This document shows positions 14,935 to 29,414 of a stretch of 43,278 nt of DNA, piece by piece (the stretch's first letter is position 1; each line of letters opens with the position of its first letter). The notes beneath the pieces are model-generated. The model saw only the letters and a list, made by a program, of their open reading frames with translations, did not search any database and was not told the origin of the DNA. The DNA is taken from assembly GCA_020052515.1 (NCBI GenBank), contig JAGVOW010000048.1, positions 1 to 43,278 of the forward strand. The letters are read 5' to 3'. Source of the stretch: Brevinematales bacterium. GTDB taxonomy: Bacteria; Spirochaetota; Brevinematia; Brevinematales; JAOACQ01. The position numbers and the translations under genes are program-made.

Positions 14935-14969
14935 TTGACAAAAATAAGGAAACAATGTATATTCATTGT
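14935..14969 (+). promoter_or_regulatory. mazEF promoter with overlapping inverted-repeat operator
   Basis: TTGACA (14935-14940) and TATATT (14958-14963) are 17 bases apart. The -10 box lies exactly in the middle of an inverted repeat ACAATG/CATTGT (14952-14969), a good position for repression by MazE or the MazEF complex. Predicted leader is about 17 bases. Confidence 0.75.
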
Positions 14970-14986
14970 ATACACCGGAGGCTTAC

Positions 14987-15226
14987 ATGGAAGTTTCAAT
15001 TCAGAAATGGGGAAATAGTTTAGCGCTGAGAATCCCGAACAATTATGCTAAAGATGCGCATCTAAAAAAAGGTTCTCATGTCAATTTAATCAAAGAAGAT
15101 GACAGAATCATAATAATACCAAAAAAGGATGATATTAAACTGAAAGACCTTTTATCTCAAATTAATGAAAAAAATCTTCACAAAGAGGCATTTGAAGGAG
15201 CGCCAATTGGAAAAGAAATCTGGTAA
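14987..15226 (+). CDS. mazE: MazE-type antitoxin (AbrB fold)
   Basis: 79 residues from the ATG at 14987, preceded by CGGAGG. The N-terminal half is an AbrB/SpoVT-like swapped-hairpin DNA-binding domain: VSIQKWGNSLALRIPNNYA and KGSHVNLIKEDDRIIIIP. The acidic and polar C-terminal tail is expected to wrap the toxin. MazE neutralises MazF and, with it, represses the operon; an inverted repeat over the -10 box fits. The mazF ORF begins within its last 20 bases. Confidence 0.92.
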   Translation: MEVSIQKWGNSLALRIPNNYAKDAHLKKGSHVNLIKEDDRIIIIPKKDDIKLKDLLSQINEKNLHKEAFEGAPIGKEIW

Positions 15227-15554
15227 TTATACCCCTTCAAAAGGAGATGTTGTCTGGTTATCTTTTACCCCTCAAAGCGCTCATGAGCAAGCCGGGCATC
15301 GTCCAGCTATGGTTATATCCCCGAAAGAATATAATGAAAAAGTTGGCCTTGCTTTATTTTGCCCCATCACTTCAAAGATTAAGGATTATCCGTTTGAAGT
15401 CAGAATTAAAATTAAAGATAAAATTGATGGTGTTATATTATCAGACCAGATCAAGAGTCTTGACTGGAAAACCAGAAAGGCTCAATTAATTATTAAAGCG
15501 CCGATAGAAATTATTGAGGAAGTGATTAATAAATTCAAGCTGCTGATTGAGTAG
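15207..15554 (+). CDS. mazF: MazF-type endoribonuclease toxin
   Basis: 115 residues from a TTG start at 15207, chosen because AAGGAG lies six bases upstream and the length then matches MazF (about 110 residues). MazF cleaves mRNA at short sequence motifs. Conserved features are KGDVVWLSFTPQ, EQAGHRPAMVISP (with the catalytic Arg), CPITSKIKDYPFEV (with the catalytic Thr), and DGVILSDQIKSLDW. All are intact, so the toxin should be active. It overlaps mazE by 20 bases, so the pair is translationally coupled. Cleavage specificity cannot be read from sequence. Confidence 0.93.
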   Translation: MEKKSGNYTPSKGDVVWLSFTPQSAHEQAGHRPAMVISPKEYNEKVGLALFCPITSKIKDYPFEVRIKIKDKIDGVILSDQIKSLDWKTRKAQLIIKAPIEIIEEVINKFKLLIE

Positions 15555-16151: not shown

Positions 16152-16169
16152 ATTTAGGAGGTGAAAGTT

Positions 16170-16400
16170 ATGATTGCAGTCGGAATAAATGATGCGAGAA
16201 GTCATTTTTCAGAATTGATAAATAAAGTAGAATCAGGAGAGGAGATCGTTATTGAAGACTCCGGAAAACCAGTAGTAAAGATGGTACCTTTTGTTAAAAA
16301 ACAAAAAAAAAGAGTACTCGGATTAGAAAAAGGGGCAATTAAAATAAGTAAGGATTTTGACATATTACCGGAAGAACAATTAAAGGAATTCTATCTATGA
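16170..16400 (+). CDS. Phd/YefM-type antitoxin
   Basis: 76 residues from the ATG at 16170, with AGGAGGTG six bases upstream. The N-terminal domain, VGINDARSHFSELINKVESGEEIVIEDSGKPVVKMVP, shows the Phd/YefM DNA-binding and dimer pattern (shown here in two stretches: NDARSHFSELINKVESGE and IVIEDSGKPVVKMVP). The C-terminal part would bind the toxin. The stop codon overlaps the toxin start as ATGA. It may have outlived its partner, whose gene is internally deleted. Confidence 0.88.
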   Translation: MIAVGINDARSHFSELINKVESGEEIVIEDSGKPVVKMVPFVKKQKKRVLGLEKGAIKISKDFDILPEEQLKEFYL

Positions 16401-16633
16401 AATATCTGCTGGATACTCATGTTTTTCTCTGGATGATCAGTGACCCGAAAAAACTTTCTAAAAAATCAAGGCTTTTGATTAATATAAAGCATGCGCTCAA
16501 CATATACAATTTACCTCTTTTTCATAAGGATCCGTTTGATAGAATGATTGTGTCTCAATCCCTTATAGAAAACATTCCAATAATTACGGCTGATTTAGAA
16601 ATAAAAAAATACCCTATCCATGTTATTTGGTAA
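16397..16633 (+). pseudogene. PIN-domain (VapC-type) toxin with internal deletion
   Basis: 78 residues, against about 125-130 for this PIN subfamily. The N-terminus (KYLLDTHVFLWMI, first catalytic Asp) and the C-terminal half (NLPLFHKDPFDRMIVSQ, ENIPIITADLEIKKY) are both well preserved and in frame. The middle 45-50 residues, including the region that normally carries the WEI/K stretch with a conserved acidic residue, are missing; the join is near 16485-16492. The likely cause is an in-frame deletion of about 140-150 bp. The product probably lacks RNase activity, though a small folded remnant could still bind the antitoxin. Confidence 0.75.
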
Positions 16634-16661
16634 CAGGTTAACATTAAATAAAGAGGAATTT

Positions 16662-18086
16662 ATGGCTATTTACACCAATCCATTGGAAACACGTTACGCG
16701 TCTTTTGAAATGCTTTCTCTTTTCTCAGAAGAAACTAAGTTTTTGACATGGCGGGACTGCTGGATCGCCCTGGCCGAAGCGGAAAAAGAATTGGGGCTGG
16801 AAATAAGTTCTGAGCAGATTGACGATCTGAAGAAAAACCGCGAGAATCTCAATCTGGAACGAACTAAAGCGATTGAGAAAGAAATCCACCATGATGTGAT
16901 GAGCCACATCCGCGCTTACGGTGAAATCGCGCAGAAAGCAAAAGGCATCATTCATCTGGGCGCTACTTCTGCCTATGTCACGGACAATACAGACATGGTC
17001 ATTATGAAAAAGGCGCTTTCTTTAGTCAAACAAAGGCTCATTACACTGATTCATACTTTAAGAGAAAAGTGCATGCAATACAAAGGCCTGCCGGTCCTTG
17101 GCTACACCCACCTTCAGCCGGCCCAGCCGACTACTCTGGGCAAGCGCATAAGTCTCTGGCTTTATGACTTACTGCTGGATTATGAAGATTTAGAAAACCG
17201 GATTCAAAAGCTCATTACGCTGGGAGTAAAAGCGACGACCGGCACTCAGGCGAGTTTCATGGAGCTTTTCGAGGGAGATAAAGAAAAAGTAAAACGGCTG
17301 GACAAATTAGTCGCTGAAAAGCTGGGCTTTTCAGAAAGCACCCCTGTCAGCGGACAGACCCTTTCGCGGAAAATCGACGTGCAGATTCTTTCTGTATTAT
17401 CGGGCATCGCGCAATCGGCGCACCGAGCGGCAAACGATGTGCGTCTTTTACAGCATAGCGCTCAACTGGAAGAGCCTTTTGACAAAAAGCAGGTAGGGTC
17501 ATCCGCTATGCCCTACAAGCGCAACCCCATTCTCGCTGAACGGATGACCTCATTAGCTCGCTATGTTATCAATGATGTTTTAAACGCATCTTATACTTAC
17601 GCCTCCCAATTTTTAGAAAGGACTCTGGATGATTCGGCAAACCGAAGGCTTTCTATTCCTGAGGGGTTTCTGGCCACAGACGCAATTTTAATTATCTACC
17701 AGAAGCTCATCGAGGGTCTGGTTATCTACCCGGAAGTGATTCACAAGCACCTTGCCGACAATCTGCCTTTCTTTGCTACAGAGAATATTTTAATGGAAGC
17801 CGTCAAACTGGGAGGAAACCGTCAGGAACTCCATGAAGAAATCAGGAATTTTGCTATGAAACAGGTGGAAGCCGTGCGGAAAGGGGGAAAATACGATATG
17901 CTTGCCGAAATGAAAAAGAGCGGGAAATTCCCCATTCCAGAATCTGTGTGGGAGAAAATCGGCGATTTTGGCCAATACATTGGGCGGGCGCCTCAGCAGG
18001 TGGAGGAATTCATCCGCGACTACATAGACCCTGTTTTGCAAAGAAACCCGGAAGCCATCGGTATAAAAGCGGAAATACGGGTTTAA
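16662..18086 (+). CDS. purB: Adenylosuccinate lyase
   Basis: 474 residues from the ATG at 16662 (AAGAGG upstream; a longer in-frame start at 16620 overlaps the PIN remnant and is rejected). The enzyme splits adenylosuccinate and SAICAR in purine synthesis. It belongs to the fumarase/aspartase superfamily: IHLGATSAYVTDN, the TGTQASF segment, and the signature GSSAMPYKRNP near residue 280 with the mobile catalytic Ser loop. The length and the C-terminal helical domain match eukaryote-like PurB forms of about 475 residues. ispE follows two bases later. Confidence 0.96.
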   Translation: MAIYTNPLETRYASFEMLSLFSEETKFLTWRDCWIALAEAEKELGLEISSEQIDDLKKNRENLNLERTKAIEKEIHHDVMSHIRAYGEIAQKAKGIIHLGATSAYVTDNTDMVIMKKALSLVKQRLITLIHTLREKCMQYKGLPVLGYTHLQPAQPTTLGKRISLWLYDLLLDYEDLENRIQKLITLGVKATTGTQASFMELFEGDKEKVKRLDKLVAEKLGFSESTPVSGQTLSRKIDVQILSVLSGIAQSAHRAANDVRLLQHSAQLEEPFDKKQVGSSAMPYKRNPILAERMTSLARYVINDVLNASYTYASQFLERTLDDSANRRLSIPEGFLATDAILIIYQKLIEGLVIYPEVIHKHLADNLPFFATENILMEAVKLGGNRQELHEEIRNFAMKQVEAVRKGGKYDMLAEMKKSGKFPIPESVWEKIGDFGQYIGRAPQQVEEFIRDYIDPVLQRNPEAIGIKAEIRV

Positions 18087-18088
18087 TT

Positions 18089-18928
18089 ATGATTATTTTT
18101 TCTCATGCTAAAATCAACCTTTTCCTGGATATTCTGGGAGTAGATTCTGTTGACCACTATCATTTTCTGGACAGTTTGTTCCAGGAAGTTTCCTTAGCGG
18201 ATGAAATTCACATTGAAGAAAGCAAATCAGACTCTGTTGTTTTTGAGCACCTGGATATTACCGGCGACACCACTGTCAATAAAGCGCTGCGGCTTTTTAA
18301 AGAAAAATTTGCAGTTAAAGAAAACTTCTCTATTCGCGTCAAAAAGGCCATTCCTGCCGGGGCGGGCCTGGGTGGAGGAAGTTCGAATGCCGCAACAGTA
18401 CTGGGTGCCCTTTCTAAAATTACCGCTATTCCTGAAGATGAAGTATTGGAGCTTGGCCAAAAAATCGGAAGCGATGTGCCGTTTTTTTTCACGGGAGGGC
18501 TTTGCCGCGTCAGAGGGAAAGGTGAAATAATTGAACCCTTAAAGAAGAGATTAGATAACATTTTTTTTCTGATCGTTTACCCCAATATTTCCATTTCCAC
18601 AAAATGGGCTTATTCGCTCGTTAATAACGAAAAAAGAGAAAAGCTTTTAGAAAAATTTCTCAATAATCTTTCATTTAACATTCAGTGGCTCAAAAATACC
18701 GCTTATAACAAATTTGAAGCCTTTGTGTTCCCGGCAAGCCCGGGACTTCTAGAAGCAAGAATTAGGCTGGATGAGCTTTTATCAGCGCCTGTCTCCTTTA
18801 TGAGCGGAAGCGGCTCATCGCTGGTGTTCGCTTATTCCGAAGAGAAAGAGGCAAAAAAAGCCGGGAAAACAGTGCGGGATCAGTCCGCCTACCCGGCTTT
18901 TTTATGCCGGCCTTTGTACCGTGGTTAA
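18089..18928 (+). CDS. ispE: 4-diphosphocytidyl-2-C-methyl-D-erythritol kinase
   Basis: 279 residues, a normal length. This GHMP kinase carries out the ATP-dependent step of the non-mevalonate isoprenoid pathway. Motifs: SHAKINLFLDI at the N-terminus, the ATP loop PAGAGLGGGSSNAA (about residues 90-103), SDVPFF, and the C-terminal MSGSGSSLVF. The start at 18089 follows the purB stop by two bases, and the usual N-terminal motif begins there, so the longer frame back to 17948 is rejected. The last 25 codons contain a complete terminator-like hairpin with a T-run that ends before the stop codon, which is unusual. The ending FLCRPL still resembles the family's C-terminus, so the frame looks real. 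Confidence 0.93.
   Translation: MIIFSHAKINLFLDILGVDSVDHYHFLDSLFQEVSLADEIHIEESKSDSVVFEHLDITGDTTVNKALRLFKEKFAVKENFSIRVKKAIPAGAGLGGGSSNAATVLGALSKITAIPEDEVLELGQKIGSDVPFFFTGGLCRVRGKGEIIEPLKKRLDNIFFLIVYPNISISTKWAYSLVNNEKREKLLEKFLNNLSFNIQWLKNTAYNKFEAFVFPASPGLLEARIRLDELLSAPVSFMSGSGSSLVFAYSEEKEAKKAGKTVRDQSAYPAFLCRPLYRG
18854..18903 (+). terminator. Terminator-like hairpin inside the end of ispE
   Basis: AAAAAAGCCGGG (18854-18865) pairs with CCCGGCTTTTTT (18892-18903), with a smaller inner stem GCGG/CCGC. The T-run finishes 23-25 bases before the TAA at 18926-18928. A transcript ending here would lack a stop codon. Confidence 0.7.
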
Positions 18929-18942
18929 CCTCGTTTTATCAA

Positions 18943-18993
18943 ACTTTATAAAGTTCGTTTTAAATTGACATGCTTTATAAAGTATTGTATATT
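18943..18993 (+). promoter_or_regulatory. fic promoter with two palindromic operators
   Basis: TTGACA (18965-18970) and TATATT (18988-18993) are 17 bases apart. The perfect palindrome ACTTTATAAAGT (18943-18954) lies upstream of the -35 box, and a second CTTTATAAAG (18973-18982) lies in the spacer between the boxes; the centres are 29 bases apart. This is a classic repressor layout. The -10 box is only six bases from the ATG at 19000. Confidence 0.8.
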
Positions 18994-18999
18994 TAAAGT

Positions 19000-19917
19000 A
19001 TGGATACAGAAGAAAAACTTCAACTCATCAAAAGGTTGTCTGGAAAAACTCAGGAAATGCTCGCGGCAGACCTTGGGGTGTCTTTTCCGACGTTGAACAG
19101 CTGGATCAATGGGAGATCCATCCCGCGAAAAGGAGCGGAACAAAGAATAGACGAACATTTTCTACGTTTAACCGGACAAAACGTAATCCCGGGAAATCTG
19201 ATTGACGGTAAAAAAGCTCTTATACTTAAGAAAAAAGAGCGGCATCCGGGTTTACTTCGATTATTGAAAGAACGCATAGACATATACGAAGAATTTTTAC
19301 TATCCTTTACTTACAACACCAACCGGATTGAGGGAAGCACCCTGACCGAACCCGAAACAGCGGCAATCCTTTTCCAGAACACCGCTTTACCGGACAAATC
19401 AATTATTGAGCAGATGGAAGTGAAAAACCACCAGGCGGCTTTTAAGTATTTATTGCAGCATTTATCGAGCCAGGGAACCATTACTGAGGAATTTGTTTTA
19501 AAGATGCACGCCATTTTGCTCAATGGAATTAGAGACGATGCCGGACAATATCGCCACCATGCAGTCAGAATCGCCGGCTCAAATGTCCCAACAGCCAATT
19601 ACATGAAAGTACCAGCTCTGACACAAAGCTTGATAGAGGATATCAGTAAGCCGGGAAAAGATATCATCCATTTTTCCACAAAAGTGCACAGCCGCTTTGA
19701 GCAAATTCATCCTTTTTCAGACGGGAACGGCAGGATTGGGCGGCTTCTGCTCACTGCTATACTTTTAAAAGATGATTTACCGCCGGCAATTATTCCTCAG
19801 GAACAAAGACGCTTTTATATTCTCTATCTCAACCAGGCACAGCTTAAAAACGATTACAGCCGGTTGGAAGATTTTATCTGCGAGGCTATCCTTAAGAGTT
19901 ATGATATACTTGGATAA
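19000..19917 (+). CDS. Fic-domain protein with N-terminal HTH domain
   Basis: 305 residues. Residues about 5-60 form a Cro/C1-type helix-turn-helix (TQEMLAADLGVSFPTLNSW-NGRSIPRK pattern). A Fic domain follows, with the intact catalytic motif HPFSDGNGRIGR (about 240-251) for transfer of a nucleotide monophosphate, usually AMP, to a target hydroxyl. The inhibitory motif (S/T)xxxE(G/N) is present as TNRIEG (about 106-111), as in class II Fic proteins that hold themselves inactive. The HTH plus the palindromic sites at its promoter suggest self-repression. The ATG sits at the predicted transcription start, without a ribosome site, so the mRNA may be leaderless. The target protein is unknown. Confidence 0.92.
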   Translation: MDTEEKLQLIKRLSGKTQEMLAADLGVSFPTLNSWINGRSIPRKGAEQRIDEHFLRLTGQNVIPGNLIDGKKALILKKKERHPGLLRLLKERIDIYEEFLLSFTYNTNRIEGSTLTEPETAAILFQNTALPDKSIIEQMEVKNHQAAFKYLLQHLSSQGTITEEFVLKMHAILLNGIRDDAGQYRHHAVRIAGSNVPTANYMKVPALTQSLIEDISKPGKDIIHFSTKVHSRFEQIHPFSDGNGRIGRLLLTAILLKDDLPPAIIPQEQRRFYILYLNQAQLKNDYSRLEDFICEAILKSYDILG

Positions 19918-20113: not shown

Positions 20114-20674
20114 CTATTTCCTGATTTTAATCAATTCCGATTCGCTCGCGATAAAGTCCAGTTGAAAATCATTTACCGTATGAGGAACTTCCGGCAAGAT
20201 TTGAAAATCATAACTAATGCCCACCGTCTTTTGAATAGAAGCCTTTGAAAGGTAGCGATCGTAATAACCCTTCCCATAACCTATACGGTAGCCGTCTTTG
20301 CCAAAAACCACTCCTGGAACAAACGCCACATCGATTTTTCCAAAGTAAGGCTCTGTATCCGGCTCAGGGATATTATACGCCCCCAGTTTGAAATCAAAAT
20401 AGAAATCGTGGATAATATAAGGTTCAATAAAATCCAGATTAATCAGCTTCGGAAAGAGAACCGTTTTTCCCTTCAGAAACAAATCTCTGGCAAGAGGAAG
20501 CAAATCCGCTTCACGGTTGATCGGCACATAAAAAAGATAAACTTGTTCATCCCCGAAAATGAAATCTTCCAGGTTACGCATAATCCGAAAAGACCTCATC
20601 TCCACACCCTCGCGGGACAAGGCTTTTCTCATTCGTAAATAATTTTCCCTTAAAGCTTTTTTTGCGTTTGTCAT
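20114..20674 (-). CDS. 5-formyltetrahydrofolate cyclo-ligase
   Basis: 186 residues, the usual length. The enzyme converts 5-formyl-THF to 5,10-methenyl-THF with ATP. It has the basic N-terminal helix (KKALRENYLRMRKAL), FYVPINREADL, and the strong signature VPGVVFGKDGYRIGYGKGYYDRYL, seen here as VPGVVFGKDGYRIGYGKG followed by YYDRYL. It is the last gene of the minus-strand run that starts with lysS, 14 bases after the nuclease-like gene, and has a weak ribosome site. Confidence 0.94.
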   Translation of the reverse strand: MTNAKKALRENYLRMRKALSREGVEMRSFRIMRNLEDFIFGDEQVYLFYVPINREADLLPLARDLFLKGKTVLFPKLINLDFIEPYIIHDFYFDFKLGAYNIPEPDTEPYFGKIDVAFVPGVVFGKDGYRIGYGKGYYDRYLSKASIQKTVGISYDFQILPEVPHTVNDFQLDFIASESELIKIRK

Positions 20675-29021: not shown

Positions 29022-29068
29022 AAACGCACCTTCTTTCTAAAGGCCCCCTTTAGCCAAACACAAAAAAT

Positions 29069-29414
29069 TGGAGGCGGTGGGAATCGAACCCACGTCCTGA
29101 AACCGAAACAGATAAGCCTTATTCACAAGCTTAGTTTTATTTTAATCTCGAAACAAACGGGAAACAAAACAAACCCGTTTGCCCCACAGCCGAAAAACTT
29201 CAGAATCCGGGTCCGGCACCCCAGAAACCTATCCTTCTTTTTTGACCCGCAAGCATTCCCGAAGGAATGAAAGGCTTACAGGAGACAGCCGTTAGGCTGC
29301 CATTGCATACGCGTAATTATCGTTTGCAATTATATTTTTGAGCCTTTTAAAGGGTTACTCAGCCCTGCCTGAAGCCTAAACGGTTCGTGTTTCAGTCGAA
29401 AGCCGAACGCCCCC
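29069..29414 (-). ncRNA. ssrA: Transfer-messenger RNA
   Basis: tmRNA rescues ribosomes stalled on mRNA lacking a stop codon. The 5' end GGGGGCG pairs with the 3' end CGCCTCC, giving a seven-pair acceptor stem with the G3-U wobble that alanyl-tRNA synthetase needs, plus discriminator A. The T-arm reads GGGTTCGATTCCC. The tag frame (29327 to 29292) encodes A-N-D-N-Y-A-Y-A-M-A-A and a TAA, with the degradation signal AA at the end. The final CCA is not in the DNA and must be added. A T-run immediately after the 3' end may serve for termination. The length, 346 bases, is typical of a one-piece tmRNA. Confidence 0.97.

Follow-up and report, generated by a model that had tools for sequence, protein, structure and literature searches.

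Why would a housekeeping gene carry a structure resembling an intrinsic transcription terminator within its last codons, upstream of its own stop codon? This question is raised by ispE in the 43,278-nt stretch of DNA from a Brevinematales bacterium that was analyzed here (the window). ispE extends from 18089 to 18928 on the plus strand and comprises 279 codons followed by the stop codon TAA; its product scores 157.1 bits against TIGR00154 (cut-off 138.7), the model of its fold has a pLDDT of 92, and the top PDB matches obtained using Foldseek are IspE structures. In the final codons of this gene, a terminator-type hairpin with a perfect 12-bp stem is present at 18854 to 18903 on the plus strand. 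Based on the evidence below, we favor, with reasonable but far from full confidence, that this hairpin is a genuine, probably two-way intrinsic terminator that evolved in ispE after the gene moved to its present neighborhood and that insulates the downstream fic gene.

The arms of the hairpin, AAAAAAGCCGGG (18854 to 18865) and CCCGGCTTTTTT (18892 to 18903), pair over 12 bp, including six G-C pairs. The downstream arm ends in a T6 run (18898 to 18903, plus strand) in codons A270-F271-L272, and the predicted RNA 3' end is at approximately 18903 to 18905. The T run starts 31 nt upstream of the end of ispE and ends at 18903, i.e., 22 nt upstream of the in-frame TAA at 18926 to 18928; stem, T run, and stop codon are, thus, exactly where the original prediction placed them. 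The order of U run and in-frame stop codon is the one described for brfA. Read on the minus strand, this hairpin is followed by a T7 run (18853 to 18859), making it a terminator candidate in both directions. RNA folding of 18854 to 18903 gave −23.5 kcal/mol (z = −4.2), and only 1 of 200 shuffles folded equally well. The core energy is −17.4 kcal/mol on the plus strand and slightly stronger, at −18.8 kcal/mol, on the minus strand. The former value is within the range of −11.8 to −26.2 kcal/mol of ten other strand-hits used for comparison (from 12 intergenic ones in our first sample of the genome); per base, the ispE hairpin is weaker than nine of these ten.

As in intrinsic terminators, the GC-rich part of the stem, with its six G-C pairs, closes right at the T6 run. 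The T6 run is followed by A-T-G, and we judge it adequate, but not strong, as a termination tract. The loops of intrinsic terminators are usually approximately 3 to 8 nt, and a short loop is typical rather than strictly defining. The ispE hairpin has a 26-nt loop, which folds itself into an inner hairpin (18871 to 18890) of 5 bp plus 2 bp; some other strong elements of the same genome have loops of 18 to 22 nt. Our consensus scan, which was limited to loops of at most 8 nt, missed the ispE hairpin because of this limit, and with the same limit it lists no terminator candidate between ispE and fic, in agreement with the earlier claim that no other terminator lies there. Among known RNA families, a scan of the window detected tmRNA only. 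In an arm search, the hairpin with 11-bp arms occurred a single time in the genome, which rules out a repeat or mobile element. When the flanks are included in the fold, the stem is extended by GGCA/TGCC with one bulged A between. These four additional pairs enclose the T run in an extended duplex, as might be expected if the stem were an RNA-processing or stability element that protects the 3' region of the mRNA or is cut there, and that does not terminate transcription. We regard such a role as very improbable because T6 right behind a GC core is the hallmark of a terminator and because ribosomes translating the gene would unfold the stem in the majority of messages.

If the hairpin is a terminator, how old is it? 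The idea that relatives might keep the hairpin at the same place was not borne out: a comparable hairpin is absent from the end of ispE in all 11 genomes of the same order (G002 to G012), ruling out for this order that it is an old feature of the gene. In these 11 genomes, spoVG lies 31 to 48 nt after the ispE stop codon (counted from an inner start in locus L014), and in 9 of the 11, prs, as read by eye, is found further downstream within the retrieved flank. Pfam confirmed SpoVG in the three relatives scanned for it and prs in the one relative scanned. In the genome of the window, spoVG, tRNA-Gln, and prs are together on contig C55 (L101, G000:C55 1501 to 2886), without ispE. Conversely, ispE and purB, the gene that precedes ispE in the window, are far apart or on separate contigs in G002, G003, and G005, and the gene after purB is not ispE in these three genomes or in G001. 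The latter is the sole other genome of the same family among those compared (86% complete), and no match to ispE was detected in it. Because ispE neighbors spoVG in all 11 same-order relatives and lies apart from purB in the three of them examined for it, ispE most likely moved away from an ispE-spoVG operon to purB. A DNA search of a plasmid collection with ispE gave no match.

The C terminus of IspE aligns without gaps with those of seven relatives in families f2 and f3, from MSGSGSS to P-x-Y-R, and the hairpin, therefore, most likely arose by substitutions within the coding sequence, with the original stop codon being kept. The K-K-A-G residues encoded by the 5' arm are not common to the relatives. 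Given the same gap-free alignment, the insertion of a terminator cassette is unlikely, as is a mis-called stop codon or a frameshift. A wider check covered 73 of the 76 loci L004 to L079, the window included (L071, L076, and L078 were omitted as partial matches; the loci contain at least one duplicate since L007 lies inside L034). Besides the window, a hairpin and T run were found in the coding end of ispE in two loci, L020 and L029, with four G-C pairs each, and downstream of the stop codon in eight other loci. In L020 (G046, same phylum), a 7-bp hairpin followed by TGTTTTTT lies 30 nt before the end of ispE, i.e., at nearly the same place as in the window; L017, the sister of L020, has kept the T run and lacks the hairpin.

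Is the hairpin, then, more than a chance product of the codons that it occupies? Our genome-wide controls used a sample of 1,271,524 of the 2,615,017 bases of the window's own genome, the window included, in which 1,093 genes were called using a purpose-made simple hexamer model. Hairpins of a strong class, with at least six consecutive pairs (one G-U pair and a 1-nt gap allowed), six of them G-C, followed by T6, gave 35 strand-hits in these 1,271,524 nt; the ispE hairpin accounts for two of them, one per strand, and the other 33 are intergenic. Hairpins of a stricter build, with at least 12 Watson-Crick pairs including A6/T6 and at least six G-C pairs, gave eight strand-hits in the same sequence, corresponding to four two-way elements; three are intergenic, and the ispE hairpin is the sole coding one. 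Accordingly, the strict build is present in 1 of the 1,093 called genes, and it was absent from 40 within-gene synonymous shuffles of all 1,093. The three intergenic look-alikes (on C55, C60, and C96 of G000) share with the ispE hairpin the 12-bp arms, the A6-GC...GC-T6 build, and the two-way architecture but differ from it in that the ispE hairpin is inside codons; they are intergenic according to the purpose-made gene calls, and the C55 element is at most 70 nt from a contig end. We conclude that the full 12-bp build is unlikely to have arisen by chance.

This conclusion applies to the strict build. A weaker form (at least six Watson-Crick pairs, six of them G-C, followed by T6) was found once in the real genes versus seven times in total in 40 shuffles, with one of these seven being in the last 105 nt; its strict mirror gave no sense and two antisense hits, and the loose mirror of the strong class gave three coding hits, both strands together. 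Similarly, six pairs with four G-C followed by T5 gave three hits at gene ends (last 100 nt) versus five in the A-run mirror control. With looser definitions, coding-end hits are, thus, at the level of the controls. A permissive scan, based on a T-rich tract and a fold energy of −12 or better, gave 432 sense and 420 antisense coding hits in 709,792 nt, demonstrating that fold energy alone is uninformative, and was dropped as non-specific. A canonical scan (loops of at most 12 nt) of the 566 genes of the first sample found candidates within the last 105 nt for 9 genes and within 150 nt past the end for 30; the most frequent position of such candidates is 30 to 44 nt past the gene end (10 of 42 in the binned set; 709,792 nt). 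Rho was found in the window's genome, and, together with the low number of gene ends followed by canonical candidates, its presence raises the possibility that much termination in this organism may be Rho-dependent.

The protein end of IspE is itself predisposed to such hairpins. When the ispE tail alone was recoded using the codon usage of the genome, 300,000 draws yielded 12-bp/T6 arms (no G-C minimum) 751 times and the 6-GC/T6 form 247 times. The T run alone comes cheaply, from Phe and Leu codons, and F271 is an F in all seven f2/f3 relatives. This conservation, the yield of 12-bp/T6 arms upon recoding, the similar numbers of coding hits in the loose controls, and the structures in L020 and L017 are what would be expected if the hairpin had no function, with the Phe/Leu codons of the C-terminal strand giving a T run that matches the upstream arm by chance in one gene. 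We nevertheless consider this explanation unlikely, because strict cases were lacking in the synonymous shuffles and because the hairpin is located where a boundary is required and is built like the terminator candidates of this genome.

Where, then, is this boundary? The purB gene (16620 to 18086, plus strand), which is supported both as an ORF and as a gene call, encodes adenylosuccinate lyase (TIGR00928, 369 bits); a second in-frame ATG at 16662 agrees with the start in relatives. Only 2 nt separate the purB stop codon from the ispE start. Further upstream, the window contains genes of the toxin-antitoxin type, i.e., MazE-like (14966 to 15226), PemK/MazF-like (15309 to 15554), and Phd/YefM-like (16161 to 16400). 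Next to these, a 78-residue PIN fragment (16397 to 16633), the match of which is confined to the C-terminal portion of the PIN profile, extends across the called start of purB. On the other side of ispE, 71 nt (18929 to 18999) separate its stop codon from an HTH-Fic gene (19000 to 19917, plus strand), the product of which matches PF01381 (HTH_3) and PF02661 (Fic/DOC) over the cut-off. Within this gap, a consensus scan identified a fic promoter candidate, TTGACA-17-TATATT, at 18965 to 18993 on the plus strand (11 of 12 matches); it is the best of nine matches, against 8.8 that chance alone would give across the scan. Two perfect CTTTATAAAG palindromes, for which strand is not applicable, flank the −35 element of this candidate with a start-to-start distance of 29 nt. 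The first (18944 to 18953) is a putative operator upstream of the −35 element, and the second (18973 to 18982) is located between −35 and −10. Based on this arrangement, the palindromes probably serve as operators to which the HTH domain of Fic would bind, and the fic promoter looks autoregulated. In E. coli, the majority of the intrinsic ends reported are 25 to 75 nt after the stop codon (PMC12207403). Because the 71-nt gap is largely filled by the promoter candidate and the palindromes, the coding end of ispE may be the available place for a terminator here.

The two-way architecture allows for the possibility that the hairpin mainly stops antisense transcription from the convergent genes to the right of fic, and that its position on the plus strand is incidental. 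The T7 run and the stronger core fold on the minus strand agree with this, as does the presence of a convergent minus-strand gene ending at 20114, from which the consensus scan lists no minus-strand terminator up to the end of ispE. However, this explanation assumes antisense read-through across approximately 1.2 kb, and the other three members of the strict class are also two-way, so that symmetry says little. Overall, we find it improbable that the minus strand is the main target.

Rather, we infer from the gene order that the hairpin insulates fic. According to this model, as the RNA polymerase reaches the T6 run at 18898 to 18903, the GCCGGG/CCCGGC stem would close, and the transcript would be released if no ribosome is near. 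In contrast, a ribosome following closely would cover the 5' arm, resulting in read-through and in a message with a stop codon from which full-length IspE could be synthesized. In a folding exercise, the full stem closed only with the RNA free from about 18860 onward, arguing that a close ribosome would prevent stem formation. In E. coli, a terminator placed 38 bp before a stop codon retained 40% of the control efficiency, and for one placed 5 bp after the stop codon, the efficiency was below 10% (PMC4824070); based on these coupling data, partial termination would be expected at the ispE hairpin. The main benefit would be that transcription of purB-ispE is kept out of fic; in addition, transcription on the minus strand would be kept from running back into ispE. 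As a by-product, some ispE mRNA would end at approximately 18903 to 18905, i.e., after codon 271, and would lack a stop codon, and the ribosomes on it would be freed by tmRNA-SmpB. The resemblance of the hairpin to the genome's own intergenic A6-GC...GC-T6 elements and the lack of another candidate before fic argue for an insulating terminator; against it, the 26-nt loop is long, and the canonical candidates in this genome sit 30 to 44 nt past the gene end, where ribosomes mask less.

Does the hairpin also connect IspE to ribosome rescue? The tmRNA gene is real (29066 to 29414, minus strand; tag ANDNYAYAMAA), and SmpB is also present in the genome. Because the hairpin is wholly upstream of the stop codon, RNA terminated there would be stop-less and, hence, a substrate of tmRNA-SmpB, and to this extent the original prediction appears sound. 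It also has a precedent. In Bacillus subtilis, brfA has a Rho-independent terminator in its coding region before the stop codon, giving rise to stop-less mRNA and trans-translation; of its 71 sense codons, the terminator allows a product ending near residue 62, approximately nine codons before the stop codon, compared with approximately eight in ispE, and this was demonstrated using reporters and synonymous mutations (PMC6881298). The difference is that brfA encodes a small rescue factor that is active in its truncated form and for which termination was experimentally shown, whereas ispE encodes a metabolic kinase and its termination is predicted. Similarly, the mRNA of arfA of Escherichia coli is left without a stop codon through termination and/or cleavage by RNase III, and trans-translation holds its product down (PMC6881298); ArfA, however, is a rescue factor with feedback, and no such link is known for ispE. 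In E. coli, a tR2 terminator placed late in a coding sequence, 38 bp upstream of the stop codon (PMC4824070), likewise still functions partly, but it belongs to an engineered construct, and coupling may differ in the present organism. Finally, E. coli RNA 3' ends internal to ORFs are also within coding regions, with aceK int having an intrinsic terminator score of 5.9, i.e., above the threshold; these ends were studied as sRNAs or premature termination, and the main text of that report leaves tmRNA unmentioned (PMC7815308). None of the papers searched combined ispE, a transcription terminator, and tmRNA, and in the small sample of literature covered, we met no metabolic gene with a pre-stop terminator that feeds tmRNA. 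The ispE hairpin may be a further predicted case of a known type, an intrinsic terminator before a stop codon.

The end of the protein bears on whether the residues encoded after the hairpin might be dispensable for an active protein. Residues 270 to 273 form the last beta-strand in the modeled IspE and span the predicted cut point; for this reason, IspE truncated after residue 271 would probably be a poor product. The codons past the hairpin (18904 to 18928, plus strand) encode the rest of L272 and C-R-P-L-Y-R-G, followed by the stop codon, and the P-L-Y-R of the window IspE corresponds to P-V-Y-R in the seven f2/f3 relatives, one of which has H for R (P275 and Y277 are conserved in seven of seven and R278 in six of seven). 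This match suggests that full-length IspE is still made and selected for and that read-through is common. The P-x-Y-R motif is missing from all four f4 relatives, which align with gaps, and the tail may, therefore, matter less than assumed.

We also considered the proposal that the hairpin is a regulatory device, in which the bulk of the ispE mRNA has no stop codon, IspE is tagged for destruction, and its level depends on rescue capacity, as with BrfA and ArfA. The brfA-like geometry, the presence of both tmRNA and SmpB, and a predicted end that would cut the last beta-strand of a confidently modeled domain speak for it. However, IspE is a metabolic kinase and not a rescue factor as BrfA and ArfA are, leaving no feedback logic; the hairpin is missing from all 11 same-order ispE genes; the codons after it match those of seven relatives, suggesting common read-through; and a following ribosome would reduce termination (PMC4824070). 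The suggestion that the amount of IspE is tied to ribosome-rescue capacity, therefore, finds no support in our analyses, and we regard such regulation as possible but unlikely. Insulation of fic would be a simpler role that accounts equally well for these observations. The more specific scenario, in which the in-frame terminator is so efficient that most ispE mRNA is stop-less, IspE derives mainly from ribosomes that keep up with the polymerase, and isoprenoid flux is set by coupling together with tmRNA capacity, seems to us doubtful indeed; if it were true, the brfA/arfA scheme would no longer be confined to rescue factors.

Altogether, ispE of this bacterium is a clear-cut natural candidate for a housekeeping gene whose codons double as a terminator, a feature apparently acquired once the gene had new neighbors: same-order relatives without the hairpin keep ispE beside spoVG, and the relocated ispE carries it. 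If the hairpin is not functional, it is a warning not to interpret hairpins at the ends of genes as regulators linked to ribosome rescue. If it is functional, it would imply that bacteria can live with an mRNA boundary upstream of the stop codon of an ordinary gene, and may even put it to use, while tmRNA bears the cost.
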